Shown: positions 3,113-53,639 of the stretch, piece after piece
How positions within the stretch are numbered: position 1 is the stretch's first letter
How the letters are laid out: each line of letters begins with the position of its first letter
Origin: a virus
Length of the DNA: 64,000 bases
Reading direction: 5' to 3' (one strand)
Virus record (IMG/VR): IMGVR_UViG_3300036770_008166
Span: 1-64,000 of that record
The notes under the pieces: model-generated
Told to the model about the DNA's origin: nothing
Seen by the model: only the letters and a program-made list of their open reading frames with translations
Database searches by the model: none
Program-made: the position numbers and the translations under genes

Positions 3113-3847
3113 ATGATAGCAAAATTTAACGAATACGCACAGACAAAAGAAAACAAAGGCACTTACCTCAGTGATGCCATCCGGCAGAACATGCGAAGCC
3201 AAGGCAAGCGGTTCTGGGCCGGCGACAACATCTCGGACTATGTGTATCCGGAGATGAAAAAAGTGCTCATCGACGAAGCCACCGAAGCGTTTGAACTGGT
3301 GCTGGATCGGCTCTTGATCGATCGTGAAACCGATCCCAACAGCAAGGGCACCGCCCGGCGCCTTGCCAAGATGTACTTCAACGAAATCATGGAGGGTAGA
3401 TATGAACCAGCACCCGACTGCACAGCGTTTCCTAACGACAGCGAGGACCGCTACACAGGCATGCTTGTGGTTCGCAGTGAAATTCGCAGTATGTGTAGTC
3501 ATCATCACCAACCCGTTGTTGGCGTTGCTTATATTGGCATTCTGGCTGCAGAAAAACTGATTGGGCTGAGCAAATACACACGCATCGCACAATGGTGCAG
3601 CCGGCGTGGTACGCTACAGGAAGAACTCTGCAATGACATCGCGCGTGAAATCATGCGGGCCACTGATAGCAAAGATGTTGGTGTGTATATCCAGGCCACG
3701 CATGGCTGTTGCGAGAATCGCGGCATCATGGCCCACTCCAGCCTCACACAGACCACCGTGCTACATGGTGCGTTCCGCACAGACCCTGCGGTGAAAAAAG
3801 AATTCATCGACAACATCAAACTCCAGCAAGATTTTGCTCCCAGATAA
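3113..3847 (+). CDS. folE: GTP cyclohydrolase I
   Basis: A 244-aa T-fold enzyme converting GTP to dihydroneopterin triphosphate, the first step to folate and to preQ0 (7-deazaguanine). The zinc site is visible: Cys127 and the His run in MCSHHHQP, with the second Cys in GCCENRG (about 198-199). The N-terminal ~60 aa are longer than in many FolE proteins. RBS CGGAG precedes two ATGs; the first (3109) opens only six codons, so 3113 is the start. With queD and queE downstream it likely serves 7-deazaguanine synthesis rather than folate. Confidence 0.9.
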   Translation: MIAKFNEYAQTKENKGTYLSDAIRQNMRSQGKRFWAGDNISDYVYPEMKKVLIDEATEAFELVLDRLLIDRETDPNSKGTARRLAKMYFNEIMEGRYEPAPDCTAFPNDSEDRYTGMLVVRSEIRSMCSHHHQPVVGVAYIGILAAEKLIGLSKYTRIAQWCSRRGTLQEELCNDIAREIMRATDSKDVGVYIQATHGCCENRGIMAHSSLTQTTVLHGAFRTDPAVKKEFIDNIKLQQDFAPR

Positions 3848-8178: not shown

Positions 8179-9024
8179 ATGAAATTCAAGGTCAGTGAAA
8201 TATTCTATTCCGCACAGGGCGAAGGCCGCTACGTGGGTGTGCCCAGCATCTTTCTACGCATGTTTGGCTGCAACTTTACCTGTTCGGGGTTTGGCTGCCG
8301 GCCGGGCGAGCGCAGTGTCGAAGCAGACGAAGTGGCCAAACGCATCGAGCTGTACAAGACCTTTGAAGAATTGCCTTTGGTAGACACTGGCTGTGACAGT
8401 TATGCATCCTGGCATCCGGCCTTCAAGCACTTGTCCCCCAACTACACTGCCACAGAACTATGCGACCGCATGGCGGAATCGCTGCCGCACGGCAACTGGC
8501 AGCAGCCAAATGGAAACCCGGTACACCTCGTGGTCACGGGTGGAGAGCCTTTGTTGGGTTGGCAGCGTGGCTATCCGGAACTGTTTGATGCTTTGCACCA
8601 ACGTGGCCTGCGACACATCACGTTCGAAACCAATGGCACACAAGAACTGCATCGAGACTTTGCACAGTATCTTGATTCTTGGTTCGGCGAGATCACATTC
8701 TCTGTAAGCCCTAAGCTCAGTGTGAGCGGTGAGGCGTGGGAGGATGCTATCCGACCCGACGTGGTCTGGAACTATGAAACACATGGTGTGACCTATCTCA
8801 AGTTCGTGGTAGAACGCCGGGAAGATTTTGACGAGCTGGATCGTGCCGTAGACGAATATCGCCTGCGTGGATTTGCAGGGCCGGTGTTTGTGATGCCAGT
8901 GGGCGGTGTGGTGCGTGTGTATGACGACAATCGCTTGAACGTGGCCGACGAAGCGTTGCGCCGAGGTTACTGGTACAGCCCAAGACTGCATGTTGACCTT
9001 TGGGGCAATGGTTGGGGCCGATGA
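8179..9024 (+). CDS. queE: 7-carboxy-7-deazaguanine synthase (radical SAM)
   Basis: A 281-aa QueE that rearranges carboxytetrahydropterin to 7-carboxy-7-deazaguanine. Family signs are FYSAQGEGRYVGVPSIFLR at 9-27, TGGEP near 120 and ETNGT. The cluster motif is atypical: Cys31-x3-Cys35, with further Cys40 (GFGC) and Cys72 (TGCDSY) rather than C-x3-C-x2-C. The third ligand is probably Cys72, as I recall for phage QueE forms with the GCDSY motif. No strong RBS (GTGAGAAC). The next gene starts on its stop (ATGA). Confidence 0.85.
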   Translation: MKFKVSEIFYSAQGEGRYVGVPSIFLRMFGCNFTCSGFGCRPGERSVEADEVAKRIELYKTFEELPLVDTGCDSYASWHPAFKHLSPNYTATELCDRMAESLPHGNWQQPNGNPVHLVVTGGEPLLGWQRGYPELFDALHQRGLRHITFETNGTQELHRDFAQYLDSWFGEITFSVSPKLSVSGEAWEDAIRPDVVWNYETHGVTYLKFVVERREDFDELDRAVDEYRLRGFAGPVFVMPVGGVVRVYDDNRLNVADEALRRGYWYSPRLHVDLWGNGWGR

Positions 9025-20658: not shown

Positions 20659-21699
20659 TCACCGCTGGATCTGGTTCCAAACACGCTGCCGGATCTGCTC
20701 TGTGAGAGCGTCAGGCAAGGGCACATAGTCCAGTTCCAGCGCGGCTTTCTTACCGTTGCGGAATGACCAGTCAAAGAATTTCAGCACTTCTGCTGACGCT
20801 GCCTTGTTCTCTGGATCCCGGTACATGATGATGAAACTGGCAGTAGAGATAGGCCAGGCCGTGGCACCGGGTTGGTCCACGATGGAGATTCCCATGCCCG
20901 GAGTGGAGAACCAATCTGCGCCAGCGGCAGCCGCAGCAAAGGTGGTGTCATCTGGACGCACGAACTTGCCGTCCCGGTTCTGCATCTGGAAGTAGGGCAG
21001 ATTGTTCTTCTTGGCATAGGCATATTCCACATAGCCGATGGCACCCTTCACACGGGCTACGTTGGCGGCCACGCCCTCGTTGCCCTTGCCGCCGATGGAA
21101 GAGGCTGCAGGCCACTTCACGGCAGCACCCTTGCCAACCTTCTCAGCCCACAGTTTGGAACTTACAGTGAGATAGTCAGTGAAGTTGAAAGTGGTGCCCG
21201 AGCCGTCTGCACGATGCACCACGGTGATGGTCTGGTCAGGCAGTTTCTTGCCCGGATTCAAGGCAGCAATCTTGGGATCGTTCCAGTTCACGATCCAGCC
21301 CATGAACATCTCAGCCAGCACAGCACCTGTGATGCGCAGTTCGCCCTGGGCGAAGCCATCCAGATTGAAGATAGGCACTGTGCCACCGATCACGGCGGGA
21401 AACTGCACCTGACCACGCTCGGCCAACTTGTCACCGGCCACAGGAGCATCAGTGGCTCCAAAGGTCACAGTCTTGCCGTTGATCTGGCGGATGCCGCCGG
21501 ACGAACCGATGCTCTGATAGTTCAGTGACACGCCAGAGTCTTTCTTGTACATCTCGGCCCATTTGGCGTAAATGGGATAAGGGAACGTGGCGCCTGCGCC
21601 CGTGATGGTCGTGGCCCAGGCCACGGTACCCATGGTCATGCAGGCCAGGGCAGCGATGATTTTCTTCATTGATTTCTCCTTGTAATAGTGCGATAGCAC
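20659..21699 (-). CDS. pstS: Phosphate ABC transporter periplasmic binding protein
   Basis: A 346-aa PstS. It has a signal peptide (KK, hydrophobic run, AWA cleavage site near residue 19) and then ITGAGATFPYPIYAKW, the family start. The phosphate-binding loops are seen as YQSIGSSGG, FGATDAP and RADGSGTTFNF, and GNEGVAANV and GYVEYAYAKKN complete the picture. It looks betaproteobacterial. RBS AAGGAG precedes the ATG, with a TAGTGC/GCACTA hairpin upstream. As in cyanophages it likely boosts host phosphate uptake; it sits next to plcP/agt-like genes. Confidence 0.93.
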   Translation of the reverse strand: MLSHYYKEKSMKKIIAALACMTMGTVAWATTITGAGATFPYPIYAKWAEMYKKDSGVSLNYQSIGSSGGIRQINGKTVTFGATDAPVAGDKLAERGQVQFPAVIGGTVPIFNLDGFAQGELRITGAVLAEMFMGWIVNWNDPKIAALNPGKKLPDQTITVVHRADGSGTTFNFTDYLTVSSKLWAEKVGKGAAVKWPAASSIGGKGNEGVAANVARVKGAIGYVEYAYAKKNNLPYFQMQNRDGKFVRPDDTTFAAAAAGADWFSTPGMGISIVDQPGATAWPISTASFIIMYRDPENKAASAEVLKFFDWSFRNGKKAALELDYVPLPDALTEQIRQRVWNQIQR

Positions 21700-21731
21700 T
21701 AAACCTACTTAGTGACCGTTATATTACAATA

Positions 21732-22730
21732 TTATGACTGTGTGGGCACCAGGTTGTCCCGGAATATCTCCCAGGCCCGCTGCCATGACCAACGTTCACT
21801 GCCTTGCCATACCGATCTGCGATCCAACTCAATGGCCTGCTGTGTTGCTCGCCAGAGATCCCTATGCATCACGCCTGTGACACCGGCATCGATCACGTCC
21901 AAGGGTCCGGGCGCAGGGTAGGCCGCCACTGGAGTGCCACAGGCCATGGCTTCGATCATGACGATGCCGAAGGTCTCCCAACGGCTAGGGAACACGAACG
22001 CATCTGCCATCTGATAGTACGAGGCCAGTTCTCGCCCGGTCTTGAACCCTACGAACTCTACTTCAGGATAACGGCGTTCATACTCTGCTCGCATGGGACC
22101 GTCTCCTACCATGATCTTCCTGTAGCCTGCCGCGGGCATGGCCAGGAAATCTTCCAGATTCTTTTCTTCGCTCACCCGGCTTACACACACCAACACACCG
22201 GTTCCTGATCCACCCAGACGAGGAGTAAAGATGTCTCGATCCACCCCGCGGGTCCATGCGATCACATTGCCGCTGAAGCCCTGATCCTGCAGTTCCGACA
22301 CCATGGTTTCCGTCGTGGTCAGCACACGGCCAGCATGGCGATGGAACCAACGCACATAGCTCCAGGTTATGGCTTCGGGCACACCTACCAACTGATGTAT
22401 GGCTTCAGGAAAGCGAGTGTGGTAAGCAGTATTGTAGCGAAGACCACGTTTTGAAAGATATTTTCTAGCGCACAGACCCACAGGACCCTCTGTGGCGATG
22501 TGGATATGATCCGCACCTGCCGCCTCAATCTTCTCGCCCATTTCCCGGGGAATGGCAATCTTGAGTTCGTTGTAGCCAGGACAATCAAAGTAGCGGAACT
22601 GCCCGGGATCAATGTAAACAATGCTATATCCCGCCAGAACCGCATGAGCTTCAATGTTTTTGTAGGTAGTGACCACGCCATTGATCTGATCCGGTAGGTT
22701 GTCTGTTATGATGAGGATCGTTTTTGACAT
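21732..22730 (-). CDS. agt: Agt-like glycolipid glycosyltransferase (GT4)
   Basis: A 332-aa GT4 enzyme. The N-terminus ILIITDNLPDQINGVVTTYKN and the segments HIHIATEGPVGL, NTAYHTRFPE and WTRGVDRDIF are those of the diacylglycerol glycosyltransferases (Agt) paired with PlcP in phosphate-starved bacteria. The donor site is seen in VSRVSEEKNLE and FGIVMIEAMACGTPV. It should add a sugar to diacylglycerol at the inner membrane, making phosphorus-free lipids. Start: ATG 22730 fits the family N-terminus; ATG 22769, directly after the plcP stop, is the alternative. Confidence 0.75.
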   Translation of the reverse strand: MSKTILIITDNLPDQINGVVTTYKNIEAHAVLAGYSIVYIDPGQFRYFDCPGYNELKIAIPREMGEKIEAAGADHIHIATEGPVGLCARKYLSKRGLRYNTAYHTRFPEAIHQLVGVPEAITWSYVRWFHRHAGRVLTTTETMVSELQDQGFSGNVIAWTRGVDRDIFTPRLGGSGTGVLVCVSRVSEEKNLEDFLAMPAAGYRKIMVGDGPMRAEYERRYPEVEFVGFKTGRELASYYQMADAFVFPSRWETFGIVMIEAMACGTPVAAYPAPGPLDVIDAGVTGVMHRDLWRATQQAIELDRRSVWQGSERWSWQRAWEIFRDNLVPTQS

Positions 22731-22769
22731 TGGGCGTCTATCCGGAACGATCGGAATTTCAGTTCCCAT

Positions 22770-23636
22770 CTAATGGATTCCGCTGCTGCCTGGCACGCTG
22801 CCTGGCTGGGCATCTCGATCTCCACCCTTCCTGGAACGTCTTGGGGATCGTTCATGTGTACCGCCAGTATGATCAGTATCCACATCGTCCTTCTCCTTGG
22901 TCCAGGTCACTATCTCCCAGCGACCGTCATGATGTTCTACTAGAGCGGTACAGGATTCTACCCAGTCACCGTCGTTCATGTAGCGTATGCCGTCAATATC
23001 TTTGATCTCTGCGTGATGTATGTGTCCACAGATCACTCCGTCGAATCCACGCTTGCGGCAGTAGGTGGCCAGGTTGCGTTCAAACTCAAATATGAAATCC
23101 ACGGCCTTTTTGACTCTGTGTTTGAGATAACGGCTCAGGCTCCAATAGCCCAGACCTAACCTGCGGCGTATGGCGTTAAAACGGCTGTTGAGATCCAGCA
23201 CGAAGTCATAGGCCTTGTCGCCCAGGAAACCCAGCCAAGGAGCCAGGCGTGTGATGCCATCGAACATGTCTCCATGCACCACCAGATAGCGATGGCCATC
23301 TGCGCCCTGATGTTCAGCCTGATTGGCTATCTCGATCTGGCCAAATGATATGCCAAACGGTATCATGGGTCTCAAGAACTCGTCGTGGTTGCCTGCTATG
23401 AACACCACCCGGGTGCCGCGTTTGGCATGTCCCAGTATGCGACGAACCACGTTGGTGTGTGATTGTTTCCAGCGCCACCGGTTCTGCTGTATCTTCCAGG
23501 CGTCGATGATGTCGCCCACAAGATACAGGGTGTCGCAGGTGTGATGTTTGAGGAAGTTGTTGAGCCGGTCTGCCTGGCAATCTCGGGTGCCAAGATGCAC
23601 GTCGGAAATGAATATGCTTCGGTAGGTATGCGGCAT
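22770..23636 (-). CDS. plcP: PlcP-like metallophosphoesterase (phospholipase C of lipid remodelling)
   Basis: A 288-aa calcineurin-type phosphoesterase, the group usually mislabelled UDP-2,3-diacylglucosamine hydrolase. Metal ligands are Asp12/His14 (SDVHLG), Asp42 (GDIIDAW), Asn83-His84 (GNHDE), His121 (HGDMFD) and His205/207 (GHIHH). RRRLGLGYWSLS and YMNDGDWVESCTALVEHHDG match Sinorhizobium PlcP as I recall it. PlcP removes headgroups from phospholipids to give diacylglycerol, the substrate of Agt next door. The C-terminal 45 aa are basic and disordered. A perfect hairpin covers its start codon. Confidence 0.8.
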   Translation of the reverse strand: MPHTYRSIFISDVHLGTRDCQADRLNNFLKHHTCDTLYLVGDIIDAWKIQQNRWRWKQSHTNVVRRILGHAKRGTRVVFIAGNHDEFLRPMIPFGISFGQIEIANQAEHQGADGHRYLVVHGDMFDGITRLAPWLGFLGDKAYDFVLDLNSRFNAIRRRLGLGYWSLSRYLKHRVKKAVDFIFEFERNLATYCRKRGFDGVICGHIHHAEIKDIDGIRYMNDGDWVESCTALVEHHDGRWEIVTWTKEKDDVDTDHTGGTHERSPRRSRKGGDRDAQPGSVPGSSGIH

Positions 23637-23662
23637 CACACAAATATTTACTGTGATGCCGC
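23630..23662 (-). repeat. Perfect 11-bp hairpin over the plcP start codon
   Basis: Positions 23630-23640 and 23652-23662 are exact inverted repeats with an 11-nt AT-rich loop. The minus-strand ATG of plcP (23636-23634) is inside the stem and no Shine-Dalgarno is visible, so the fold should block ribosome access. It could act as a translational switch, or as a processing/termination hairpin after terC. Confidence 0.6.
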
Positions 23663-23678
23663 TGCCTGTTAAAGACTA

Positions 23679-24617
23679 CTATGACCGAATTGTGACTACT
23701 CTGGTCTTCCAAAGGCTGTACGCGATACCGCCCGCTATCAAACCAAATGTAAGGCCCAGCGTGAGCAGGGCCGGCAACTTGATGCCGATCATCATGAGCA
23801 CGATCTTGATGCCGATCAAGACCAGGATCAAGGCCAAGGCATACTTGAGATAGTGGAAACGATGTATCATCGCCGACAGGGCAAAGTACAAGGCTCTGAG
23901 TCCGAGGATAGCAAAGATGTTTGATGTATACACCAAGAACGGATCCTGCGTTATGGCCAGGATGGCCGGTACCGAATCCACTGCAAATATGATGTCAGCG
24001 AAGTTCACCAGGACCAAGGCCACCAACAACGGAGTAAAGTATCGGACGCCGTTTTCTTTGAACCAGAAACTGTGCCCACGATACTCCTTGGTGAGATTCA
24101 TCTTGCTCTTCATCCAGCGATAGATCACGCTGTTCTCAAAGTCCGGACCATCGTTCTCTTTGACATACAGCATCTTGACGCCTGTGTAGATCAAGAACGC
24201 GCCAAAGAACCACAAGATCCACTGCCACTCTGACACAGCCGCGGCACCAAACCCTATGAATATAGCCCGGAACACCAGGGCCATGAGTATGCCCCATACC
24301 AACACTCGATGCTCGTAGATCCTTGGTATTCCTAAGAAAGCGAATATCAGTGCGAACACGAAAACGTTGTCCAGGCTCAGGCTTTTTTCTACCAGGAATC
24401 CGGTATAGTACAGCAAGGCATCGTCTGGGCCACGCCACCACCATACGCCCAGACCAAACAACAGGGCAATGGCGATGTAGAAGGCCGATAACCAGAGACT
24501 TTCTTTGACACCGATTTCGTGATCAGTTTTGTGCAGCACACCAAGATCAAAGGCCAACAGAGCAAACACTATGAGCAGGAAAACAGCCCAGGGCAACAGG
24601 GTCATGAATTCCATCAT
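23679..24617 (-). CDS. TerC/Alx-family integral membrane protein
   Basis: A 312-aa polytopic membrane protein with about nine membrane segments. Family motifs are the acidic EKSLSLDNVFVFALIF in an early helix and NFADIIFAVDSVPAILAI in a later one. TerC/Alx members export manganese or help metal loading and membrane protein stability. It lies upstream of plcP and is coupled to a 42-aa peptide gene by an ATGATG overlap. A host-derived gene by look; its use to a phage is unclear. Confidence 0.88.
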   Translation of the reverse strand: MMEFMTLLPWAVFLLIVFALLAFDLGVLHKTDHEIGVKESLWLSAFYIAIALLFGLGVWWWRGPDDALLYYTGFLVEKSLSLDNVFVFALIFAFLGIPRIYEHRVLVWGILMALVFRAIFIGFGAAAVSEWQWILWFFGAFLIYTGVKMLYVKENDGPDFENSVIYRWMKSKMNLTKEYRGHSFWFKENGVRYFTPLLVALVLVNFADIIFAVDSVPAILAITQDPFLVYTSNIFAILGLRALYFALSAMIHRFHYLKYALALILVLIGIKIVLMMIGIKLPALLTLGLTFGLIAGGIAYSLWKTRVVTIRS

Positions 24618-25190: not shown

Positions 25191-25416
25191 CGGCAAAAAA
25201 ATGCGGATAGAATTCGCACCTGGTGCGTTTGACACATTCGATGGAACTCAAGAGGAACTGGATGCCTTGGTAGCCGAACTTGAACGCATGGCCGAATCCG
25301 GCGAACTGGAAGCGAACTCCGTGGCCTTGGAAGACTGGGACGACCTCGACGACCAAGATCGCGACATCATTGCCGATGCTTTGGAACGTATGCAACCGCC
25401 GCGCAGCCTTAACTAA
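25183..25416 (+). CDS. Conserved T4-like phage protein, 77 aa
   Basis: TTG 25183 is the best start (GGAG upstream; product opens MSDGKKMRIEFAPGAFD); ATG 25201 is the alternative. IEFAPGAFDTFDGTQEELDALVAELERM followed by an acidic tail is a pattern of conserved T4-like phage unknowns. It overlaps the preceding gene by 8 nt. Confidence 0.65.
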   Translation: MSDGKKMRIEFAPGAFDTFDGTQEELDALVAELERMAESGELEANSVALEDWDDLDDQDRDIIADALERMQPPRSLN

Positions 25417-25442
25417 ATTATGATCCATTTACCAACGGTAAA

Positions 25443-25696
25443 TACCAAATTGTTGTAATTCCTTCAATGAGGATGTGTTCAAGACGCGGGTTCGAATCCC
25501 GCCACCTCCACCCAAGTATATCGAAAAGTGTATTTGGGTGGGGGTGCTCCGGCAATCGATTGGGCAAGCAATCAAAGACGGCAACAGGAGAGTCGACTGA
25601 CCTAATCAGCGAAAAACCATAGACGCCAATGACAGTGTCTACGCACGGGCCGCTTGAACCCTGCCGGGGTAGCTATACCTTGTAACCCAAAATAGC
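25443..25696 (+). ncRNA. ssrA: Permuted (two-piece) tmRNA
   Basis: The acceptor piece comes first: GAGGATGT, then T-arm GCGGG-TTCGAAT-CCCGC (25486-25502) and CACCTCC-A (25503-25510). After a CCCAA.../...TTGGG linker hairpin the coding piece begins with GGGGGTG (25540-25546). These pair as a 7-bp acceptor stem with the alanine-identity G3.U70 (25542/25507). Tag: resume codon GCC 25625, peptide ANDSVYARAA, stop TGA 25655-25657, preceded by ATAGAC as in the E. coli resume region. CCA is not encoded (CCC). A terminator follows. The RNA rescues stalled ribosomes and tags peptides for proteolysis. Confidence 0.9.
25625..25657 (+). CDS. tmRNA tag peptide reading frame (ANDSVYARAA)
   Basis: Ten sense codons from the GCC resume codon to TGA. 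The AND start and AA end are typical of proteobacterial tags; the final AA is the ClpXP degron. No start codon is needed because ribosomes enter from the stalled mRNA. Confidence 0.85.
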   Translation, partial: ANDSVYARAA

Positions 25697-25722
25697 GATA
25701 GGCCTTAGGGCCTATCTTTTTT
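25697..25722 (+). terminator. Intrinsic terminator of tmRNA
   Basis: GATAGGCC/GGCCTATC stem with a short loop followed by six T (25717-25722). Confidence 0.9.
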
Positions 25723-25781
25723 CCCATTACGATAGTCTATGATGCCCATAGAAAAAAATAATGAAAAATCAAGAAAAAACA

Positions 25782-25811
25782 TTGACTCTATGATATATAA
25801 TCGTGTATAGT
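25782..25811 (+). promoter_or_regulatory. Sigma-70-type promoter for ahpC-ahpD
   Basis: TTGACT (25782-25787), 18-bp spacer, TATAGT (25806-25811), 55 nt before the ahpC start, directly after the tmRNA terminator. Confidence 0.65.
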
Positions 25812-25865
25812 AGAAACACTGAGACAGGGTGTCTCAATCGACGAAATAAAGGAACCCCAAAAAAT

Positions 25866-26426
25866 ATGAAAACCGTAGGCGACAAAATCGAACCATTCAT
25901 CGTGACAGGTGTAAATCCTGGCAGCGACAAGTTTTTTGACATCACCGAACACAGTTTCGCAGGCAAGTGGCGAGTGATCGTGTTTTATCCCAAAGACTTC
26001 ACATTCGTGTGTCCCACGGAGATCGTGGCATACGACCGATTGTTCAAGGACTTTGAGGAGCGTGACGCTGTGTTGCTCACAGGATCGACTGACAACGAGT
26101 TCTGCAAACTGGGCTGGCAGGCTGCGCACAAAGATCTTGCCAAGATCCGTCATGTACAATTTGCCGACACACAGCGTGGCGAACTGAGCCTGGTTGATCA
26201 ATTGGGTGTGTTCTTTGCTCCCGCAGGGGCCGCACTCCGCGCTACTTTCATCGTGGACCCTGAGGGCGTGATCCAGCATGTCACAGTGAACAATCTCAAT
26301 GTTGGCCGCAGTGCCGAAGAAACGCTGCGTGTGCTGGATGCGCTACAGACCGGCGAACTGTGCGAATGCAACCGTCAGGTGGGTGCTGACACACTTGAGA
26401 GTAAAAAACTCAAGAAGGCCACTTGA
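25866..26426 (+). CDS. ahpC: AhpC-type peroxiredoxin
   Basis: A 186-aa 2-Cys peroxiredoxin reducing H2O2 and organic peroxides. The peroxidatic motif DFTFVCPTE has Cys49; a C-terminal GELCECNRQ supplies resolving cysteines, as in the AhpC type reduced by AhpD. I take ATG 25866 (AAGGAACCCC upstream), not an in-frame ATG at 25803 inside the promoter. ahpD follows directly. Probably protects host or virion assembly from oxidative stress. Confidence 0.9.
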   Translation: MKTVGDKIEPFIVTGVNPGSDKFFDITEHSFAGKWRVIVFYPKDFTFVCPTEIVAYDRLFKDFEERDAVLLTGSTDNEFCKLGWQAAHKDLAKIRHVQFADTQRGELSLVDQLGVFFAPAGAALRATFIVDPEGVIQHVTVNNLNVGRSAEETLRVLDALQTGELCECNRQVGADTLESKKLKKAT

Positions 26427-26428
26427 TC

Positions 26429-26941
26429 ATGCAGTGGGTTGATCAACTCAAAGAAGGCCTGCCCGACTACGCCAAGGACACTCGGCTCAACATCGATGCC
26501 GTGGTCAAACGATCAACATTGGTCGCGGAAGAAGCCGAAGCCGTGGCCTTGGCTGCTGTGTTTGCCACAGGCAATACAAAATTGTGGACCTGGATGCAGA
26601 TCCAGATTGCCGATCAACGGGAGGCCGAGGCTGCGATCACTGCCGCATCGTTGATGGCCATGAACAATGTTTGGTATCCCTATGTTGAGATGGCAGATGA
26701 TGCCAATCTCACAGGACTACCGGCACAGTTGAGGATGAACGCTATAGCCACCCACGGTGGCACCACCAAGGCTCGTTTCGAAGCCTATAGTTTGGCCGCT
26801 AGTATCGTAGGCAAATGTCATTTCTGTGTGAAAGCACACTATGAAACGCTGAAGACGGAAGGTTACACAGTGGAGCAACTGAGAGATATTGGTCGGATCG
26901 CGGCTGTGATGACTGCAGTGAGCCGGGTAATGGCTTCCTAA
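26429..26941 (+). CDS. ahpD: AhpD alkylhydroperoxidase / AhpC reductase
   Basis: A 170-aa carboxymuconolactone-decarboxylase-fold protein. SIVGKCHFCVKAHYETL (CxxC near 131-134, then His) is the AhpD active site, and NIDAVVKRSTLVAEEAEAVALAAVFA the family N-terminal half. It would recycle oxidised AhpC. It starts right after ahpC (ATG 26429; TTG 26423 is possible). The pair forms a self-contained peroxide defence unit. Confidence 0.88.
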   Translation: MQWVDQLKEGLPDYAKDTRLNIDAVVKRSTLVAEEAEAVALAAVFATGNTKLWTWMQIQIADQREAEAAITAASLMAMNNVWYPYVEMADDANLTGLPAQLRMNAIATHGGTTKARFEAYSLAASIVGKCHFCVKAHYETLKTEGYTVEQLRDIGRIAAVMTAVSRVMAS

Positions 26942-27699: not shown

Positions 27700-28473
27700 A
27701 TGAACACTTGTCCTAAATGTAATGTAAACCACACAAAGCCTGGAAAATTTTGTTCTCGTTCTTGTGCTAATAGCAGAGGTCCCAGAACTGAAGAATTCAA
27801 ACAGAGCGTAAGTAAAAAATTATTTGGCAGGAAAGGTATCTCGAATGTAAACAAAGGGCTATACCTGGTAGAAAGAATCACCACTAAATGTTTACAATGT
27901 AAAATCGAATTTTTCACAAAGATTACAAAACCAACAAAATATTGTTCGAATGATTGTTGGAGACAACAATCCGGAGGATATAGGCCAGGGTCAGGAAGAA
28001 GTAAATCGGGATACTACAAAGGTATCTATTGCGGTTCTTCATATGAACTTTGTTGGGTGATTTACAACATTGATCACGGAATTAAATTTAAAAGATTCCC
28101 AGGAGTAATAGAAAACGCCGAATTAAAGTATTATCCTGATTTCATTCTCGATGATCGCAAAACCATTGTTGAGATAAAAGGGTTTGAGGATAAGCAGTCG
28201 GTTGATAAAAAAACAAAACTAGCAGAAAGTGTTGGATACATTGTTAATGTCTATCGTAAAGACGACTTGAAATATGCTTTCGATTATGTCAAAAAAGCAT
28301 ACAATACGACAAGGTATCATACATTATATGATCAATACAGTCCGTCGTATCATTACACATGCAATCATTGCTCTACCGAATTCAGTAGAGATAAAAAATT
28401 GAAAACCGATGTAGTTTTTTGTTCTCGGCAATGTGCAGGAAAAGGTCATAGAGGTAAAAAGTTGTCCCTATAG
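27700..28473 (+). CDS. PD-(D/E)XK-type homing endonuclease-like protein with zinc fingers
   Basis: A 257-aa protein, clearly more AT-rich and Lys-rich than its neighbours, inserted between tRNA-Tyr and tRNA-Glu. Three Cys pairs-of-pairs (CPKC...FCSRSC near 4-22; KCLQC...YCSNDC in the middle; TCNHC...FCSRQC at the end) look like small zinc ribbons. Between them GIYCGSSYELCWVIYNIDHGI and YYPDFIL...IVEIKGFE give the Asp and Glu-x-Lys of the nuclease fold. Probably a mobile homing nuclease targeting the tRNA array. Its last 10 nt are the 5' strand of tRNA-Glu. Confidence 0.75.
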   Translation: MNTCPKCNVNHTKPGKFCSRSCANSRGPRTEEFKQSVSKKLFGRKGISNVNKGLYLVERITTKCLQCKIEFFTKITKPTKYCSNDCWRQQSGGYRPGSGRSKSGYYKGIYCGSSYELCWVIYNIDHGIKFKRFPGVIENAELKYYPDFILDDRKTIVEIKGFEDKQSVDKKTKLAESVGYIVNVYRKDDLKYAFDYVKKAYNTTRYHTLYDQYSPSYHYTCNHCSTEFSRDKKLKTDVVFCSRQCAGKGHRGKKLSL

Positions 28474-28540
28474 ATTACGCTGGTTAGATCACTTCCCTTT
28501 CAAGGAAGCGGACCGGGATCGTCACCCGGTGGGGACGCCA
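28464..28540 (+). tRNA. tRNA-Glu (TTC)
   Basis: Acceptor GTCCCTA/TGGGGAC, D-stem GAT/ATC, anticodon stem CTTCC/GGAAG with loop CTTTCAA (TTC), T-stem CCGGG/CCCGG, discriminator G and CCA. The T-loop ATCGTCA lacks the usual TTC. Its first 10 nt overlap the endonuclease gene end. Confidence 0.85.
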
Positions 28541-28550
28541 TAAAACAAGT

Positions 28551-28625
28551 CCTAGCGACAGTGCTCAACGGGCGCGCAAGCCGACCGATCTGGCTAGGCC
28601 AAGCGGGACCAGCAACCTCCCGCTT
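28551..28625 (+). other. Structured spacer between tRNA-Glu and tRNA-Asp
   Basis: Two stems fill the gap: CCTAGC/GCTAGG (28551-28556 with 28593-28598, followed by CCA) and an 8-bp perfect AAGCGGGA/TCCCGCTT (28601-28608 with 28618-28625). The first might be a decayed tRNA; the second may be a processing signal. Confidence 0.4.
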
Positions 28626-28640
28626 GATGACAATGAGTTT

Positions 28641-28715
28641 GGTCCGTTAGTTAAACGGTTATAATTCTGGCTTGTCACGCCAGGGTCAGGAGTTCGACTC
28701 TCCTACGGACCGCCA
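28641..28715 (+). tRNA. tRNA-Asp (GTC)
   Basis: 75 nt with CCA. Acceptor GGTCCGT/ACGGACC, anticodon stem CTGGC/GCCAG with loop TTGTCAC (GTC), T-loop TTCGACT, discriminator G. Confidence 0.93.
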
Positions 28716-28721
28716 GTCCAT

Positions 28722-28797
28722 GTATCGGTAGTGTCAACGGTTAGCACGGCAGCCTCCAAATCTGCTTGTGAGGGTTCGAATCCTTCCCGGTACGCCA
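28722..28797 (+). tRNA. tRNA-Trp (CCA)
   Basis: 76 nt with CCA. Acceptor GTATCGG/CCGGTAC with one T.G pair, anticodon loop CTCCAAA (CCA), T-arm GAGGG-TTCGAAT-CCTTC. A C.T mismatch closes the anticodon loop. Confidence 0.88.
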
Positions 28798-28813
28798 AAC
28801 GATCCAATCTTTG

Positions 28814-28888
28814 GCCGGTGTAGCACAGTGGCAATGCGCTCGCCTTGTAAGCGAGATATCGGGAGTTCGATTCTCTCCACCGGCACCA
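28814..28888 (+). tRNA. tRNA-Thr (TGT)
   Basis: 75 nt with CCA. Acceptor GCCGGTG/CACCGGC, anticodon stem CTCGC/GCGAG with loop CTTGTAA (TGT), T-loop TTCGATT, discriminator A. Confidence 0.93.
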
Positions 28889-28893
28889 AACAT

Positions 28894-28967
28894 CTCGGCG
28901 TGGCCGATCGTCCAGGCACGGGTCTGCAAAACCCGCTAGGCAGGTTAGACTCCTGCCGCCGAGTCCA
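28894..28967 (+). tRNA. tRNA-Cys (GCA)
   Basis: 74 nt with CCA. Acceptor CTCGGCG/CGCCGAG, anticodon stem CGGGT/ACCCG with loop CTGCAAA (GCA), T-arm GCAGG-TTAGACT-CCTGC, discriminator T. Confidence 0.92.
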
Positions 28968-28971
28968 CTTA

Positions 28972-29017
28972 TCAGGCAATGCCCACCGGCCTTGTAAGCC
29001 AGCCTCTTGCCTGACAC
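28972..29017 (+). ncRNA. Armless tRNA-like element with TGT anticodon loop
   Basis: A 7-bp perfect outer stem TCAGGCA/TGCCTGA (28972-28978 with 29008-29014) followed by C-ACC, and an inner GGC/GCC stem with loop CTTGTAA identical to tRNA-Thr. There is no D- or T-arm. It sits exactly in the tRNA row between Cys and Gly, 4 nt from the next tRNA. Either a deleted tRNA-Thr or a minimal tRNA mimic. Confidence 0.5.
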
Positions 29018-29020
29018 CCA

Positions 29021-29094
29021 GCGGCGGTAGTATAATGGTATTATGACAGCCTTCCAAGCTGATGACGCGGGTTCGATTCCCGCTCGCCGCTCCA
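29021..29094 (+). tRNA. tRNA-Gly (TCC)
   Basis: 74 nt with CCA. Acceptor GCGGCGG/TCGCCGC, anticodon stem CAGC/GCTG with loop CTTCCAA (TCC), T-arm GCGGG-TTCGATT-CCCGC, discriminator T. Confidence 0.93.
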
Positions 29095-29164: not shown

Positions 29165-29201
29165 ACTTAATTCAGGTTAATTACTAAGAAAGGATATGAC
29201 T

Positions 29202-29804
29202 ATGCCAGCTGTATTTCTAGTATCAGACACACATTTCGGTCACAGCGGTGTCTGTAGATTCACCCGCGACGACGGTACCAAGCTGCGTCCTTGGACCGAT
29301 CCTGACGAGATGGATGAACATCTGGTGCGTGTGTGGAACGAGCGTGTGCGGCCACAGGACAAAGTGTATCACCTTGGAGACGTTGTGATCAATCGTAAAG
29401 CCCTGCGAACTCTGTCTAGGCTCAACGGAGACAAGGTCTTGATTCGCGGTAATCATGACATCTTTCGGGACGATGAGTATCGCGAATACTTCCGTGAACT
29501 GAGAGCTTATCATGTCATGAACGGCATGATACTCAGCCATATTCCTGTGCATGAAGCCAGCCTGGGTCGCTTTGGTGTTAACATCCACGGACACCTGCAC
29601 TATCAGCGCGTGCGGCGTGCCCGTGGGGTCAATTCCCGGACTGGAGAGATCTTATATTCAGATGACATCGATACGCGCTATCATTGTGTGTGCGTGGAAC
29701 AGACTCCGGATTTTGCGCCGATCTTGTTTGAAGATGCGATCCGGAGGATCAAGGCCGAAGGCGGCACAGTGGGATTTCGCAACGGCAATGGTCCGGTGAT
29801 GTAG
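29202..29804 (+). CDS. Calcineurin-like metallophosphoesterase
   Basis: A 200-aa phosphoesterase of the small phage type: SDTHFGH, HLGDVVINRK, IRGNHDIF, ILSHIPVHE and NIHGHLH carry the metal ligands in order. Such proteins are frequent in T4-like marine phages; substrate unknown (nucleotides or RNA ends proposed). ATG 29202 is 7 nt from AAAGGA; ATG 29196 is too close. Confidence 0.85.
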   Translation: MPAVFLVSDTHFGHSGVCRFTRDDGTKLRPWTDPDEMDEHLVRVWNERVRPQDKVYHLGDVVINRKALRTLSRLNGDKVLIRGNHDIFRDDEYREYFRELRAYHVMNGMILSHIPVHEASLGRFGVNIHGHLHYQRVRRARGVNSRTGEILYSDDIDTRYHCVCVEQTPDFAPILFEDAIRRIKAEGGTVGFRNGNGPVM

Positions 29805-29892
29805 TGCAACAGCAGCGATCCAAACCACAGAACGCAAGGTTTCCGCCCACTCTAATCGGGAGTCGAATTATTACTGGCCAGGCCAAACACAG

Positions 29893-29921
29893 TTGACAAT
29901 ACGATCAACCTGTGTCATAAT
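29893..29921 (+). promoter_or_regulatory. Sigma-70 promoter for rpoZ homologue
   Basis: Perfect TTGACA (29893-29898), 17-bp spacer, CATAAT (29916-29921), 27 nt before the start codon. One of the best host-type promoters in the window, suggesting early expression. Confidence 0.85.
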
Positions 29922-29948
29922 GTTTATCTGACATGATAGGAGCGATTA

Positions 29949-30200
29949 ATGGCAAGGATTTCTAGCGAACTGGCAGCACGAGCAGTAGGCAGCAAGTATG
30001 ATCTTATCTTGATTGGCGCAAGACGCGCACGCGAACTGAACCGTGGTTGGCGACCCACAGTGACCTGTGACAATGGTGCTGTGGTAACGGCCCTGCGCGA
30101 GATCGAAGCCGGCCATATCGGCCGGGATTATCTGTTGAAACCTCTCAATCTCGATCGGCGAGAACGACCTCCCGCCGATGCTCATCATGGTAGACTATAG
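29949..30200 (+). CDS. rpoZ: RNA polymerase omega subunit homologue
   Basis: An 83-aa protein that reads as RpoZ: MARISSELAARAVGSKYDLILIGARRARELNRG corresponds to the conserved first helices, and VVTALREIEAGHIGRDYL to the conserved second block (ALREIEEG in E. coli). In bacteria omega chaperones the beta' subunit and tunes promoter choice. A phage copy under a strong host-type promoter could bias host RNA polymerase. The C-terminal 20 aa are basic and unrelated. RBS AGGAGCG is 8 nt upstream. Confidence 0.85.
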   Translation: MARISSELAARAVGSKYDLILIGARRARELNRGWRPTVTCDNGAVVTALREIEAGHIGRDYLLKPLNLDRRERPPADAHHGRL

Positions 30201-30210
30201 GAGAACCAAT

Positions 30211-30609
30211 TTGGAATTTTTACCTGTACTAGAACTGATCGATAGACTTTGTATTGCCAGGGTCAAACACAAACGTACCAATGGCGCCAACCAAGTTGAA
30301 TTAGATTGGTATGAGGATAAGTTCCGCCAGCTAACACAAAGTGCCGAACTTGATTACAATGTAGATGCCATGACTGCGATCCACAATGCCATATGGGAAC
30401 TGGAATGGCAACTCAAAACTGGTGTGGAGCAACAGTTGTCTTTGGAAGAAATCGGACGCAGAGCCATCCGCATCCGAGACTACAACAACAAACGCATCAG
30501 TTTCAAAAACTCTATCGCCAGTCTCTTAGGTCATCCTGTGAGAGAATTTAAACACGATCATCTCAGCGAGGACACCATGGTCCGAACTGTTCACGATCGG
30601 AACAAATAG
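30211..30609 (+). CDS. Conserved phage hypothetical protein, 132 aa
   Basis: Helical protein: EFLPVLELIDRLCIARVKHKRTNGAN near the start and a basic C-terminus. TTG 30211 with AGGAG 7 nt upstream is my choice; ATG 30187 or 30178, inside rpoZ, are alternatives. The LEFLPVxExxDRLxIAxVKxxxTNGAN pattern is one I associate with phage unknowns. Its stop directly abuts the inverted-repeat RNA element. Confidence 0.6.
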   Translation: MEFLPVLELIDRLCIARVKHKRTNGANQVELDWYEDKFRQLTQSAELDYNVDAMTAIHNAIWELEWQLKTGVEQQLSLEEIGRRAIRIRDYNNKRISFKNSIASLLGHPVREFKHDHLSEDTMVRTVHDRNK

Positions 30610-32648: not shown

Positions 32649-33385
32649 ATTCCAGGTTCGCTCATTTTGTGCGCGGCAAAATGCAGAATCCACACTTGCA
32701 ATACGCGCAGATAGCGCAGAGTGCTTGCAAATGGGCCTACAGCGATCGGTTGCGTATCAAGACGCAACTGATAGATAATATTGAGCTCATCAAGAATCGA
32801 AGAGTATTAGATTTAGGTTGCCATGATGGAATTCTAAGTGAAGCCATGGATCAATTGGGAGCTAGGTCGGTGATAGCTACCAATGTAAGACAAGACATGA
32901 TTGATCTGGTAAATCAATGTCTCAAAGAACTTCCGGTACCCACACTGGTCACAGTGATCAAACACGACCTGTATGATCTAGACACATTGGACCTGTTGCT
33001 GGAACAAAGCGACACTATACATTTCTCTGGCACAGTCATGCATCTCAATCATCATTATCAGCTTTTTTATCATCTGTGTAATAATCGACCAGATCACATG
33101 ATTTTGGACTCTATCTATTATGATCAATCATGGCATCATGCCACGCCTTTACAGACATGGCGTCTTGAATCTATGGAAGATGTGCTCTTCGGACATGACC
33201 AAAAATCGCAAACAACTGATGGCAAAATCTTTGTAGGCACGCCTAATCTTTGCTGGTATCGACAGATGTTAGACATGTTCGGGTGGCAATTGGTCGAGCA
33301 TCATGACCTCGCTTATGTCCACTTTGAAGAAAAGCTGCGCCGGAGATCTGTGATGGTATGTCAAAGACGTAAGAAATCGCCATGA
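32636..33385 (+). CDS. Class I SAM methyltransferase
   Basis: A 249-aa protein with motif I VLDLGCHDGILSEAM near 57-71 and TIHFSGTVMHLNHHYQLFY near 127-145. The last resembles small-molecule or tRNA-wobble type methyltransferases. It lies between a beta-rich protein and the transporter, overlapping both. Substrate unknown. Confidence 0.7.
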   Translation: MLDLDSRFAHFVRGKMQNPHLQYAQIAQSACKWAYSDRLRIKTQLIDNIELIKNRRVLDLGCHDGILSEAMDQLGARSVIATNVRQDMIDLVNQCLKELPVPTLVTVIKHDLYDLDTLDLLLEQSDTIHFSGTVMHLNHHYQLFYHLCNNRPDHMILDSIYYDQSWHHATPLQTWRLESMEDVLFGHDQKSQTTDGKIFVGTPNLCWYRQMLDMFGWQLVEHHDLAYVHFEEKLRRRSVMVCQRRKKSP

Positions 33386-34626
33386 GCAAAATTAATCGTA
33401 TCACCTTTGCCAGCGCATTTGGAACGCTGTTTGAATGGTATGATTTTTTGATCTATGGTATTGCGGCTGCACTGGTTTTCAACACCCTGTTTTTTCCACA
33501 GGTAGATCCAATCACCGGAATGTTAGCATCATTGCTGACATTTTCAGTGGGATTTATTGCTCGACCAGTAGGAGGTATCTTGTTTGGGCATTTGGGAGAT
33601 CGCATCGGCCGGAAAAAAACCCTGATGTTAACGATGTTAATCATGGGCATGGCCACATTTGGCATTGGGATTTTGCCCACATATCAAAGTATCGGAGTAT
33701 GGGCGGCGGTGTTGCTGGTAGTGTTGCGATTACTGCAAGGACTAGCATTTGGTGGCGAATGGTCTGGAGCCAGTGTCATGATTCTCGAGCATGCTCCGCT
33801 GCGCCGTCGGGGGTTTTATACCAGTTTTATACAAATGGGTTATCCATTGGGGTTGCTGTGTGCCACTGGAATATATGCCTTGATCACTAGGCTTCCAGAA
33901 CAAGAATTTTTAGAATGGGGTTGGCGCATTCCGTTTATATTGAGCATGCTATTGGTGGCCATTGGAATCTGGGTGCGCTGGGGACTGGATGAAACTCCGG
34001 CCTTCCAAGAATTGTCATCTACTGGTGCCATTTCCAAAACGCCATTGTTAGACGTATTGCAACAGCCCAAAGATCTATTGATTGCAATGGGACTCAAAAT
34101 AACCGAAGTCTCTTGGGCGTATCTATTGACAGTGTTCGCCGTGGTGTACGCTGTCAACAATTTATCAATAGCTCGCAGCGATATGATGCATGCCATATTG
34201 ATAGCCAGCGTTATCAATGTCATTGCTATTCCGGTGTTTGGATGGTTGAGTGACGTGGTAGGCCGTAGACAAATCTATATCATGGGATCGATCATCACTG
34301 TGATAATAGCCTTTCCAGTCTGGCAGGCATTGTCCAGTGGACACTTGTTGGAAGCAATGATAGCGGGACTGGTTCTAGGCAATGCTTTGATGATGGCACC
34401 ATTGGCTGCATACCTTCCAGAGTTATTTCCGGCCAGCACGAGATATACCGGTAGTGGTATAGGATGTCAGATGGCAGCAGCCTTGGGTGGCGGAATCTTG
34501 CCAGTCGCTGCCACTGCTTTGGCCACTACCTATGGAATATCAACAGTGAGTATACTGATGATTGTGCTTGGATTGATCACTCTGTATTCGGCGTATCATG
34601 CGCCGAGGCAGATAGACAAATCTTAA
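33382..34626 (+). CDS. MFS transporter of the metabolite:H+ symporter type
   Basis: A 414-aa membrane protein with 12 predicted segments. FGTLFEWYDFLIYGIAAALVF at the start, GFIARPVGGILFGHLGDRIGRKK (loop 2-3 motif near 56-78), and LQGLAFGGEWSGASVMILEHAP are hallmarks of the ShiA/KgtP/ProP group importing organic acids, proline or betaine with protons. Start ATG overlaps the methyltransferase stop. Complete, not truncated. A full-length secondary transporter is very unusual for a phage. Confidence 0.88.
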   Translation: MSKINRITFASAFGTLFEWYDFLIYGIAAALVFNTLFFPQVDPITGMLASLLTFSVGFIARPVGGILFGHLGDRIGRKKTLMLTMLIMGMATFGIGILPTYQSIGVWAAVLLVVLRLLQGLAFGGEWSGASVMILEHAPLRRRGFYTSFIQMGYPLGLLCATGIYALITRLPEQEFLEWGWRIPFILSMLLVAIGIWVRWGLDETPAFQELSSTGAISKTPLLDVLQQPKDLLIAMGLKITEVSWAYLLTVFAVVYAVNNLSIARSDMMHAILIASVINVIAIPVFGWLSDVVGRRQIYIMGSIITVIIAFPVWQALSSGHLLEAMIAGLVLGNALMMAPLAAYLPELFPASTRYTGSGIGCQMAAALGGGILPVAATALATTYGISTVSILMIVLGLITLYSAYHAPRQIDKS

Positions 34627-51332: not shown

Positions 51333-52158
51333 GTCCCATCTCTTTTCTTATCTTCGTGGCGGAAATAGCGTGTGTAGCATCGTCAAATCTTTCTTGCTCT
51401 ATCCGGTAACCCACGTCTCTACCGTAAGTTATATTGACGATGTTGGGCACTACCTGGATCTCATATTGTCCTTGATAGAGAGGGTCCAGGTCTCGCCTGA
51501 TAGCGTCTTTTACTGTAGACCACGAAAAAGGATTTGACTGATTCCAGCCCTGGCAATCACGGATCATGATACAGACTTGTCCGGTTTTCGCTATGGCTCG
51601 CTCAAACAATGCCCTGTGGCCGGCATGCCAAGGTTGCCAGCGACCCAACATCTGTACAGTTTCTTTCTTCCAGTCAAACACCGGCCTGCGGCGCCGTTCC
51701 AGGATATGCTCGCCCACGAATTCTGCCCACTTCTCGGCACGCTGTTCCGTGATGCGGAAGTCATACACTTCAGGTGGCACAAACATTCGGTTTGTGTCCA
51801 CAAATCTGCCAGCATCAATGGTATCCATCCATATAGTCCAATCGGCTTTGAAATTGTGACGCATCTCGGCCAAGGGTGCCACGAAGTCCACTACAACAAA
51901 ATCGGCCCAACTTTTGCCTGCCAATTCACGCATGCGATGGCTCTGACGTATGCGACCGTCTTGGCTGAAATCCCAGTCATTGAATCTTTGCCGGACCTCG
52001 TCGGCATTGAACCGTTCCACTGTTGCTCGACTGTCAAATAGACTTTCAGACTCGGAATGGTAAAAATCACTGTGAGCCTCGAGATATTGTTTGAGGTGGT
52101 CCGCAAAATAGGTTTTACCTGATCCTGGCAGACCCATTACTAGTATTTTTTGTGTCAT
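51325..52158 (-). CDS. P-loop kinase fused to HxGH nucleotidyltransferase
   Basis: A 277-aa two-domain protein. Residues ~1-150: kinase-like with Walker A GLPGSGKTYFA (9-19) and FNADEVRQRFNDWDFS, as in adenylylsulfate kinase. Residues ~165-277: nucleotidyltransferase with GRWQPWHAGHRALFERA and late ISATKIRKEM. The order kinase-then-transferase is opposite to NadR. It could phosphorylate and nucleotidylate one small molecule. ATGA overlap with the carbamoyltransferase, 8-nt overlap with DUF2061. Confidence 0.8.
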   Translation of the reverse strand: MTQKILVMGLPGSGKTYFADHLKQYLEAHSDFYHSESESLFDSRATVERFNADEVRQRFNDWDFSQDGRIRQSHRMRELAGKSWADFVVVDFVAPLAEMRHNFKADWTIWMDTIDAGRFVDTNRMFVPPEVYDFRITEQRAEKWAEFVGEHILERRRRPVFDWKKETVQMLGRWQPWHAGHRALFERAIAKTGQVCIMIRDCQGWNQSNPFSWSTVKDAIRRDLDPLYQGQYEIQVVPNIVNITYGRDVGYRIEQERFDDATHAISATKIRKEMGLE

Positions 52159-53639
52159 GAAAATACCTTTACGTTATAAAGTTGTTGAAATTTGTCAGCA
52201 TCCTCGCGATCATTGACCATGGGTTCGCCACGGATGTTGAGGCTGGTGTTCAGCAGCATGGGACAACCAGTGAGCGCATACCAAGCTTCCAGCAGCCTTC
52301 GTATGCCAGATCCATCCTGCGGCACAGTCTGCACACGCGCTGTACCATCCGCATGCGTAATTGCTGGGAATGATCGCGCGTCTCGTACCCGGGCCACGGT
52401 CTGCATGTATCTGCTGGTGGTAAAACCGCGTGGCATGTCAAAATAGTCCGTGACATGCTCTTCCAGGATGGCAGGAGCGAAAGGTCGGAACTTTTGCCTG
52501 CGTTTGATCTCGTTCACTCGATCTTTGATTTCCGGTCCTCTGGGGTCTGCGAGCAGACTGCGATTGCCCAATGCGCGCGGACCAAACTCAGCACGGCCGC
52601 TAGCCACACCAGCAATAGCATGGGCACAGAGATGATCAACAACAGCACGCACAGGATAAGGCCCAGGGATATCATGGCCAAGATAAGCATGGCGCCACCT
52701 AAGTCTTCCGCCATGAGAAAGAGCCGCTGCGCCCAAGCTTGACCCTGCGTCTCCGGGGTTGGGCATGATCCAGATGTTTTCATAGATATCTCCTATTCTT
52801 GCGTTGGCCACACAGTTCAGGGCCACTCCGCCCATGTATACCAGATTATCACTGCTCACAAGGCTGCGGGCCCGTATCATGACATTGCGTATCATCTGTT
52901 CCGTGAGATGTTGTGCAGCCGCGGCCAAATCTTCGGGCTTGTAGAAATCAAGTTCGTACTCGTCAAATCCTATGTGCAGATTGCGTCGCATGGTCAGATC
53001 GATCATGCTTTCCACGCATTGATCTCGCAGCCAGGCAGTGCCGAGACCATTGCCATAGGCTGCCATGCCCATGGTGATGTATTCTTCTTCCATGGGTTTA
53101 AGTCCCACAGCCCGGGTTATGGCGCTGTAAAACAATCCAATGCTGTGCGGATAACCTTGGCGCCACACGCGCCGATAATGTGCGCGACCACGCTCATCAT
53201 ACCAGGCTCGAAATATACTGATGGTGTCCATCTCTCCGATGGCATCTATGACCACTACCGCAGCATCTCGGAACGGCGAAGTTTGGAATCCTGCAGCGGC
53301 ATGGCTGAGATGATGCGGCCACGAGCGTTCACGATTGGCCGCACGCTGATACCAGGCACCTAGATGCCGTCTGATGGCTTGACCGGTGGTCCAAGGACCA
53401 TACTGTCTCTGGCCGCTGCGCCATTGTTGCCAGTTGTGCAACCATGGACGTTCATAGAATGCCACATCGTTTATGTCAAAATCGCAGCATTCACGCAAAA
53501 GGTCTGGATGTATGTTTGGATCATTCTTGATCTTGCTGTATCTCTCTGAATGGCCGGCAAATAGGATATCCCCTCGATCACTCAGCACAGTCACGGCAGC
53601 ATCATGAAATCCTGCGCTGATGCCTAGTATGGTTTTCAT
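52155..53639 (-). CDS. NodU/TobZ-type O-carbamoyltransferase
   Basis: A 494-aa protein: GISAGFHDAAVTVL at the start, HHLSHAAAGFQTSPF, VYMGGVALNCVANARI, MPNPGDAGSSLGAA, and EFGPRALGNRSLLADPR late. These are the family's Fe/ATP site and the carbamoyl-adenylate transferase part. It uses carbamoyl phosphate and ATP to carbamoylate a hydroxyl on a sugar or natural product. Somewhat shorter than NodU (~570 aa) but with both ends present. Confidence 0.88.
   Translation of the reverse strand: MKTILGISAGFHDAAVTVLSDRGDILFAGHSERYSKIKNDPNIHPDLLRECCDFDINDVAFYERPWLHNWQQWRSGQRQYGPWTTGQAIRRHLGAWYQRAANRERSWPHHLSHAAAGFQTSPFRDAAVVVIDAIGEMDTISIFRAWYDERGRAHYRRVWRQGYPHSIGLFYSAITRAVGLKPMEEEYITMGMAAYGNGLGTAWLRDQCVESMIDLTMRRNLHIGFDEYELDFYKPEDLAAAAQHLTEQMIRNVMIRARSLVSSDNLVYMGGVALNCVANARIGDIYENIWIMPNPGDAGSSLGAAALSHGGRLRWRHAYLGHDIPGPYPVRAVVDHLCAHAIAGVASGRAEFGPRALGNRSLLADPRGPEIKDRVNEIKRRQKFRPFAPAILEEHVTDYFDMPRGFTTSRYMQTVARVRDARSFPAITHADGTARVQTVPQDGSGIRRLLEAWYALTGCPMLLNTSLNIRGEPMVNDREDADKFQQLYNVKVFS

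Follow-up and report, generated by a model that had tools for sequence, protein, structure and literature searches.

Phages modify the RNA polymerase of their hosts with unrelated small proteins, or they bring a whole polymerase. Like T4 AsiA, Alc, gp33/gp55, P7 and gp79, the phage protein described here would act on the host core polymerase; however, those proteins are unrelated binders, and a phage omega is a core subunit itself. In bacteria, omega (RpoZ) forms half of ppGpp site 1, and what it does in the polymerase is a long-standing question, given that E. coli can dispense with it. In giant eukaryotic viruses, Rpb6 homologues serve the viral polymerase. RNA polymerase subunit 6 of Marseillevirus (viral Rpb6) belongs to the same fold superfamily as omega and is a weak structural match to the protein studied here; in contrast, no viral polymerase was found for the phage omega in the sister records tested. 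The best viral structural matches are UniProt A0A6J5T227 and A0A6J7WH19, both from uncultured Caudovirales phage and automatically named 'DNA-directed RNA polymerase'; the former is 55% identical to our protein over 58 aligned columns. Neither a study of these two entries nor a study of any phage omega was found in the literature, where subscription journals were thinly covered. Huge phages carry housekeeping sets of tRNAs, tmRNA and ribosomal proteins, and the omega-bearing phages resemble them in their large genomes, tRNA/tmRNA islands and T4-type capsids; passages of the huge-phage survey name no omega, and a figure legend gives just 'RNA Pol' (PMC7162821).

The window, that is, the whole stretch of 64,000 nucleotides analysed here, covers the first 64 kb of a virus record of 115,246 bases. 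The omega gene and its surroundings are listed below, with L002, L003 and L004 denoting the loci of the three nearest relatives.

25395..25748 (+): permuted tmRNA, betaproteobacterial type, upstream of omega (ARAGORN and Rfam)
28464..29094 (+): tRNA cluster Glu, Asp, Trp, Thr, Cys, Gly, upstream of omega (ARAGORN; 5 of the 6 also by Rfam)
29196..29804 (+): calcineurin-like phosphoesterase gene, adjoining omega (Pfam)
29826..29885 (+): probable decayed tRNA-Arg (alignment); an intact tRNA-Arg(TCT) lies there in L002-L004
29893..29921 (+): sigma70-type promoter TTGACA-17-CATAAT, 1 mismatch to consensus; TTGACA-17 kept in L002, L003 and L004
29893-29898 (+): -35 element TTGACA (promoter scan)
29916-29921 (+): -10 element CATAAT, 17-bp spacer from the -35
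29938-29942 (+): Shine-Dalgarno AGGAG, 6 nt before the ATG; GGAG kept in L002-L004
29949..30200 (+): phage omega (RpoZ-like) gene, 83 aa, ATG start (profile, fold and tree evidence)
29949..29963 (+): MARIS, codons 1-5, canonical; residues 2-5 are ppGpp site 1 contacts in E. coli
30117..30134 (+): IGRDYL, codons 57-62, phage C-terminal signature with consensus G-R-[DE]-Y-L (alignment)

In the Pfam search, the omega ORF matched PF01192 (RNA_pol_Rpb6) with 44.1 bits (E 2e-11; curated cut-off 26 bits), and in the NCBIfam search it matched TIGR00690 rpoZ with 40.9 bits (curated cut-off 23.6). The PDB matches to a profile of 8 relatives are all RNA polymerase omega chains, with E. coli among the best. 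The AlphaFold model (pLDDT 82.1) contains the omega helices. All Foldseek PDB matches listed for it are bacterial RNA polymerase entries or an omega model; the best align to omega chains (prob 1.00), with a TM-score of ~0.66 and 39-41% identity to E. coli omega chains, and the omega fold is thus found in the predicted structure. At the sequence level, the window protein carries [RK] at position 28 and the VxALREI block, and R26, V46, A48, E51 and I52 are invariant in the alignment of 64 phage omegas. Together, the profile scores, the omega-only PDB matches and the predicted fold indicate that the ORF is a real RNA polymerase omega homologue and not a chance reading frame. The first-pass annotation, which had called it an RpoZ homologue and proposed a profile search as the check, was correct on this point, as both profiles favour RpoZ. 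The basic tail that it described was confirmed in part: the C-terminal tail, LKPLNLDRRERPPADAHHGRL, is net basic, but only mildly so (5 K/R versus 3 D/E by hand count), and tails of this type are common only to the nearest relatives of the window omega.

The spread of such genes is wide. A first scan of IMG/VR gave 10 relatives, an alignment of these first relatives raised the number to 146, and a wider alignment to at least 496 related genes in virus contigs, the last two totals being raw counts without one-by-one screening for bacterial DNA. The contigs reach 524 kb. A tree was built from 64 distinct phage omegas and 32 bacterial omegas, the latter mainly best matches from 299 genomes of one phylum, Pseudomonadota. 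In this tree, the phage omegas form one side of a branch with support of 100/100 and a length of 1.34 changes per site, and a wider quick tree with 99 phage rows agrees with a separate phage branch. By this sequence comparison, the phage omegas are a single virus-only clade apart from the sampled bacterial omegas. All 30 phage omega members examined match PF01192, and none of the 30 matches any family in PHROGs v4. Among near relatives, dN/dS lies between 0.015 and 0.17 in the 16 pairs where it was computable, which indicates that the omega gene is under purifying selection. In bacterial genome contigs, no close relative of the phage omega was found, only 7 distant omegas, and therefore no recent donor was identified.

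Among 50,697 phage records, tblastn found no cultured phage with such an omega and gave weak matches only. The match in an Acinetobacter 'phage' lies in a gmk-rpoZ-spoT locus, which is bacterial DNA under a wrong label, and the Campylobacter A11a copy, which grouped with gammaproteobacterial omegas in the tree, was set aside as mislabelled bacterial sequence. We judge the weak 'phage' matches in GenBank to be mislabelled bacterial DNA, as was directly demonstrated for one of them. Such entries give some ground for suspecting that the window gene, too, is bacterial and that its contig is chimeric or mislabelled. This is contradicted by the position of the phage clade apart from bacterial omegas, by neighbours (the tRNAs and a peroxiredoxin pair) that are shared with other contigs, by the absence of gmk and spoT among the neighbouring genes searched, and by the baseplate genes of the same record. 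The chimera reading is thus largely refuted, and its probability is negligible.

Beyond the window, the remainder of the record encodes the wedge and hub proteins of a T4-type baseplate as well as further virion proteins, and the earlier claim that a phage carries this omega is thereby upheld. A T4 gp23-type capsid match was found in 12 of the 28 records with a related omega, 11 of them over the cut-off. In the near relative L002, the capsid shares 62-66% identity with its counterparts in jumbo phages including PA5oct, CBB and GAP32. For positions 1-24000 of the window, no match to known phage DNA was found. The window tmRNA has its best match to the betaproteobacterial tmRNA model (171 bits), which hints at, and does not prove, a betaproteobacterial host. 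Its tag is read by ARAGORN as ANDSVYARAA, while LAA is the usual tag ending in relatives; two tmRNA genes are present in L004.

Other genes of the window were also recorded. A peroxiredoxin (AhpC/TSA) and a carboxymuconolactone-decarboxylase-type (AhpD-like) gene form a pair at 25803-26941 (+) and are 86-92% identical in L002 and L004. At 20659-24617 (-) and 33382-34626 (+) there are genes for a PBP_like_2 (phosphate-binding-protein-like) protein, a glycosyltransferase, a phosphoesterase, a TerC membrane protein and a sugar-type MFS transporter, which are host-like transport and stress functions in a phage. Genes for GTP cyclohydrolase I and a QueE-like radical SAM protein, at 3113-3847 and 8179-9024 (+), possibly represent a deazaguanine route (queuosine or DNA modification). 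A Nol-like carbamoyltransferase is encoded at 52155-53639 (-) (PHROG 1601, 311 bits).

Comparison of the loci shows that phage omegas typically lie inside or beside tRNA islands. A tRNA or tmRNA was found within 3.1 kb of 60 of the 64 distinct phage omega genes, within 1 kb of 53 and within 100 nt of 33, which are descriptive figures with no genome-wide baseline. In 10 of the 64, omega stands between two tRNAs with no more than 30 nt on either side, some spacers being only ~20 and ~10 nt, and all tRNAs found in the 64 loci are on the strand of omega. The 3' end of omega overlaps the next tRNA-Met gene by ~20 nt in L034, L036 and L054. In L002-L004 the intact tRNA-Arg(TCT) lies 63-64 nt before omega; in the corresponding stretch of the window, 29826-29885, neither ARAGORN nor Rfam reported a tRNA. 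Relatives of the phosphoesterase are present in the omega loci of 37 of 80 relatives. For the 143-aa ORF directly 3' of omega (30178-30609), Pfam and PHROG gave no match, and no homologue adjoins other phage omegas; it was therefore left out of the omega unit.

This setting bears on the identity of the gene. An ordinary bacterial rpoZ orthologue was rejected, as the phage genes form a separate clade (100/100) and the neighbours of the window gene are tRNAs and a phosphoesterase, with no gmk or spoT among the genes searched. The beta/gammaproteobacterial type of RpoZ shares the core, the predicted fold, the MAR segment and the VxALREI block with the window omega; however, phage omegas differ in having S6 for V, E29 for Q or M and a G-R-[DE]-Y-L end, as well as in their tRNA surroundings without adjoining gmk or spoT. 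The embedding of omega in tRNA arrays, at times with a tRNA close by on either side, might also suggest that the protein is a decoy or has a role outside the polymerase, for example one tied to the tRNA island. Invariant core residues under purifying selection speak against this, and we regard it as very unlikely.

The gene also appears to be provided with its own promoter. In the window, the first base of TTGACA-17-CATAAT is 56 nt 5' of the omega start, and TTGACA-17 sits 55-56 nt before the start in the three nearest relatives. The strong host-type promoter named by the first-pass annotation is thus confirmed, with a single mismatch and with conservation in the nearest relatives. Sigma70-like sites with up to 2 mismatches number 16 in the window, compared with 5.5 expected and a maximum of 12 in 100 shuffles; the early promoters of this phage are therefore probably of host type. 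TTGACC-17-TATAAT recurs at 17780, 18022 and 39267 (+). Across the family, a sigma70-like site lies no more than 250 nt upstream in 22 of the 64 distinct omega genes, compared with a mean of 4.2 and a maximum of 10 for random same-strand windows of the same loci. From this excess and the tRNA setting, phage omegas seem to be expressed in two ways: some, like the window omega, from a strong promoter of host type that serves the gene itself, and others presumably within tRNA transcripts.

The partner of the phage omega is likely the RNA polymerase of the host. Profile searches of sister records found no beta' N-domain in 28, and no beta domain and no sigma70 domain over the cut-off in 15, with one sub-threshold beta match in G013; in control genomes the beta' and beta searches were positive in 14 of 14 and the sigma70 search in 10 of 14, and the sister records are fragments in which a distant phage polymerase could be missed. 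These negative results and the host-type promoter point to the host enzyme. Genes for beta and beta' exist in some phage lineages (PMC7481178), so that omega might instead serve a multi-subunit polymerase of the phage. Given that such subunits were absent from the records searched while the controls were positive, and that omega has a promoter of host type, we hold this to be highly improbable.

It had also been proposed that the phage omega may reset promoter choice or may render the host enzyme insensitive to ppGpp. The ppGpp phosphates at site 1 are coordinated by omega residues 2-5 among others, and by beta' R417 and K615; most of the effect of ppGpp in E. coli is carried by site 2, with DksA (PMC7676912). 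The ppGpp proposal drew on a supposedly divergent N-terminus, and the suggested check of the site-1 residues was run. Residues 2-5 of the window omega are ARIS, compared with ARVT in E. coli, and the sampled proteobacterial omegas have MAR[VI]T; within residues 1-5 the sole departure from this pattern is a conservative Thr-Ser substitution at residue 5. The N-terminus is the canonical segment and not divergent, the omega part of site 1 looks intact, and a ppGpp-blind mechanism is therefore unsupported for the window protein. Moreover, site 2, the main one in E. coli, would stay untouched.

The same idea has a better footing elsewhere in the family. MAR[ILV] is kept in 40 of the 64 distinct phage omegas and replaced or extended in 24, and in the wider set the segment is altered in 44 of 99 sequences. 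It is replaced in sister clades by MPRQT or MKTPDF, or pushed inward by M[TS]ESR[AV]RYT and by longer extensions ending in LGLSNE. The fewest changes by parsimony are about 15, on a poorly resolved tree; repeated change of the MAR segment is likely, and its exact number is soft. Considering that omega residues 2-5 contact ppGpp, the insensitivity idea may be right for sister clades in which the MAR segment is lost or extended. As an account of the window omega, insensitivity at site 1 is unlikely. No RelA/SpoT domain (ppGpp enzymes) was found in the 28 records with a phage omega that were searched.

Apart from the N-terminus, several residues distinguish the phage proteins. S6 is present in 95% of 64 phage omegas, compared with V in 94% of the sampled bacterial omegas. 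E29 is present in all 64, compared with Q or M in the bacterial set. R59 is found in 91% of the phage omegas and Y61 in 97%, and in the sampled bacterial set neither is one of the four residues seen most often at its position. Phage omegas usually stop shortly past G-R-[DE]-Y-L. Drift that followed a single ancient transfer, and not a new function, could account for the phage-specific residues. In the simplest account, the phage omega would only do the job of host omega, as a beta' chaperone and part of site 1, and sustain the polymerase supply in long infections. The conserved core and MAR segment agree with such a dosage effect, as does the retention of omega beside other spare housekeeping parts (tRNAs, tmRNA). 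However, the fixed or nearly fixed S6, E29, R59 and Y61 and the long branch to bacterial omegas suggest an adaptation that goes further than mere replacement; a pure dosage role is possible but doubtful.

The explanation that we consider probable, if far from certain, is that a phage-adapted omega becomes part of the host polymerase and brings to it a phage-specific surface. The gene would be transcribed, probably early, by the host sigma70 polymerase from its own promoter, and in sister phages it would be read together with the tRNAs. The protein would assemble on host beta' during infection, where host omega would be topped up or replaced. As the MAR segment is kept, site-1 binding of ppGpp should be preserved in host polymerase carrying the window omega. 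The surface formed by S6, E29 and the G-R-[DE]-Y-L end would most likely be a changed beta' contact or a dock for a phage transcription factor. E. coli is viable without omega, so a large effect of the phage protein is not guaranteed. More tentatively, phage omegas may be modular regulators that replace host omega and offer a surface to phage factors, with the MAR-altered clades switching off site 1 and thereby tuning the stringent response.

Judged from sequence, the phage omega is a phage-specific variant that is more widespread than the earlier annotation could see. The hundreds of virus-only omegas, mostly among tRNA genes, suggest that these viruses routinely swap or top up this part of the host transcription machinery. 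To carry a single core subunit of cellular type, maintained by purifying selection across hundreds of uncultured phages, would represent a further strategy; no example turned up among the isolates, PHROGs and papers that were searched. As omega forms half of site 1, and phage versions have the site-1 segment intact, altered or missing, these genes would provide a useful set of natural variants with which to probe the role of omega in the polymerase.
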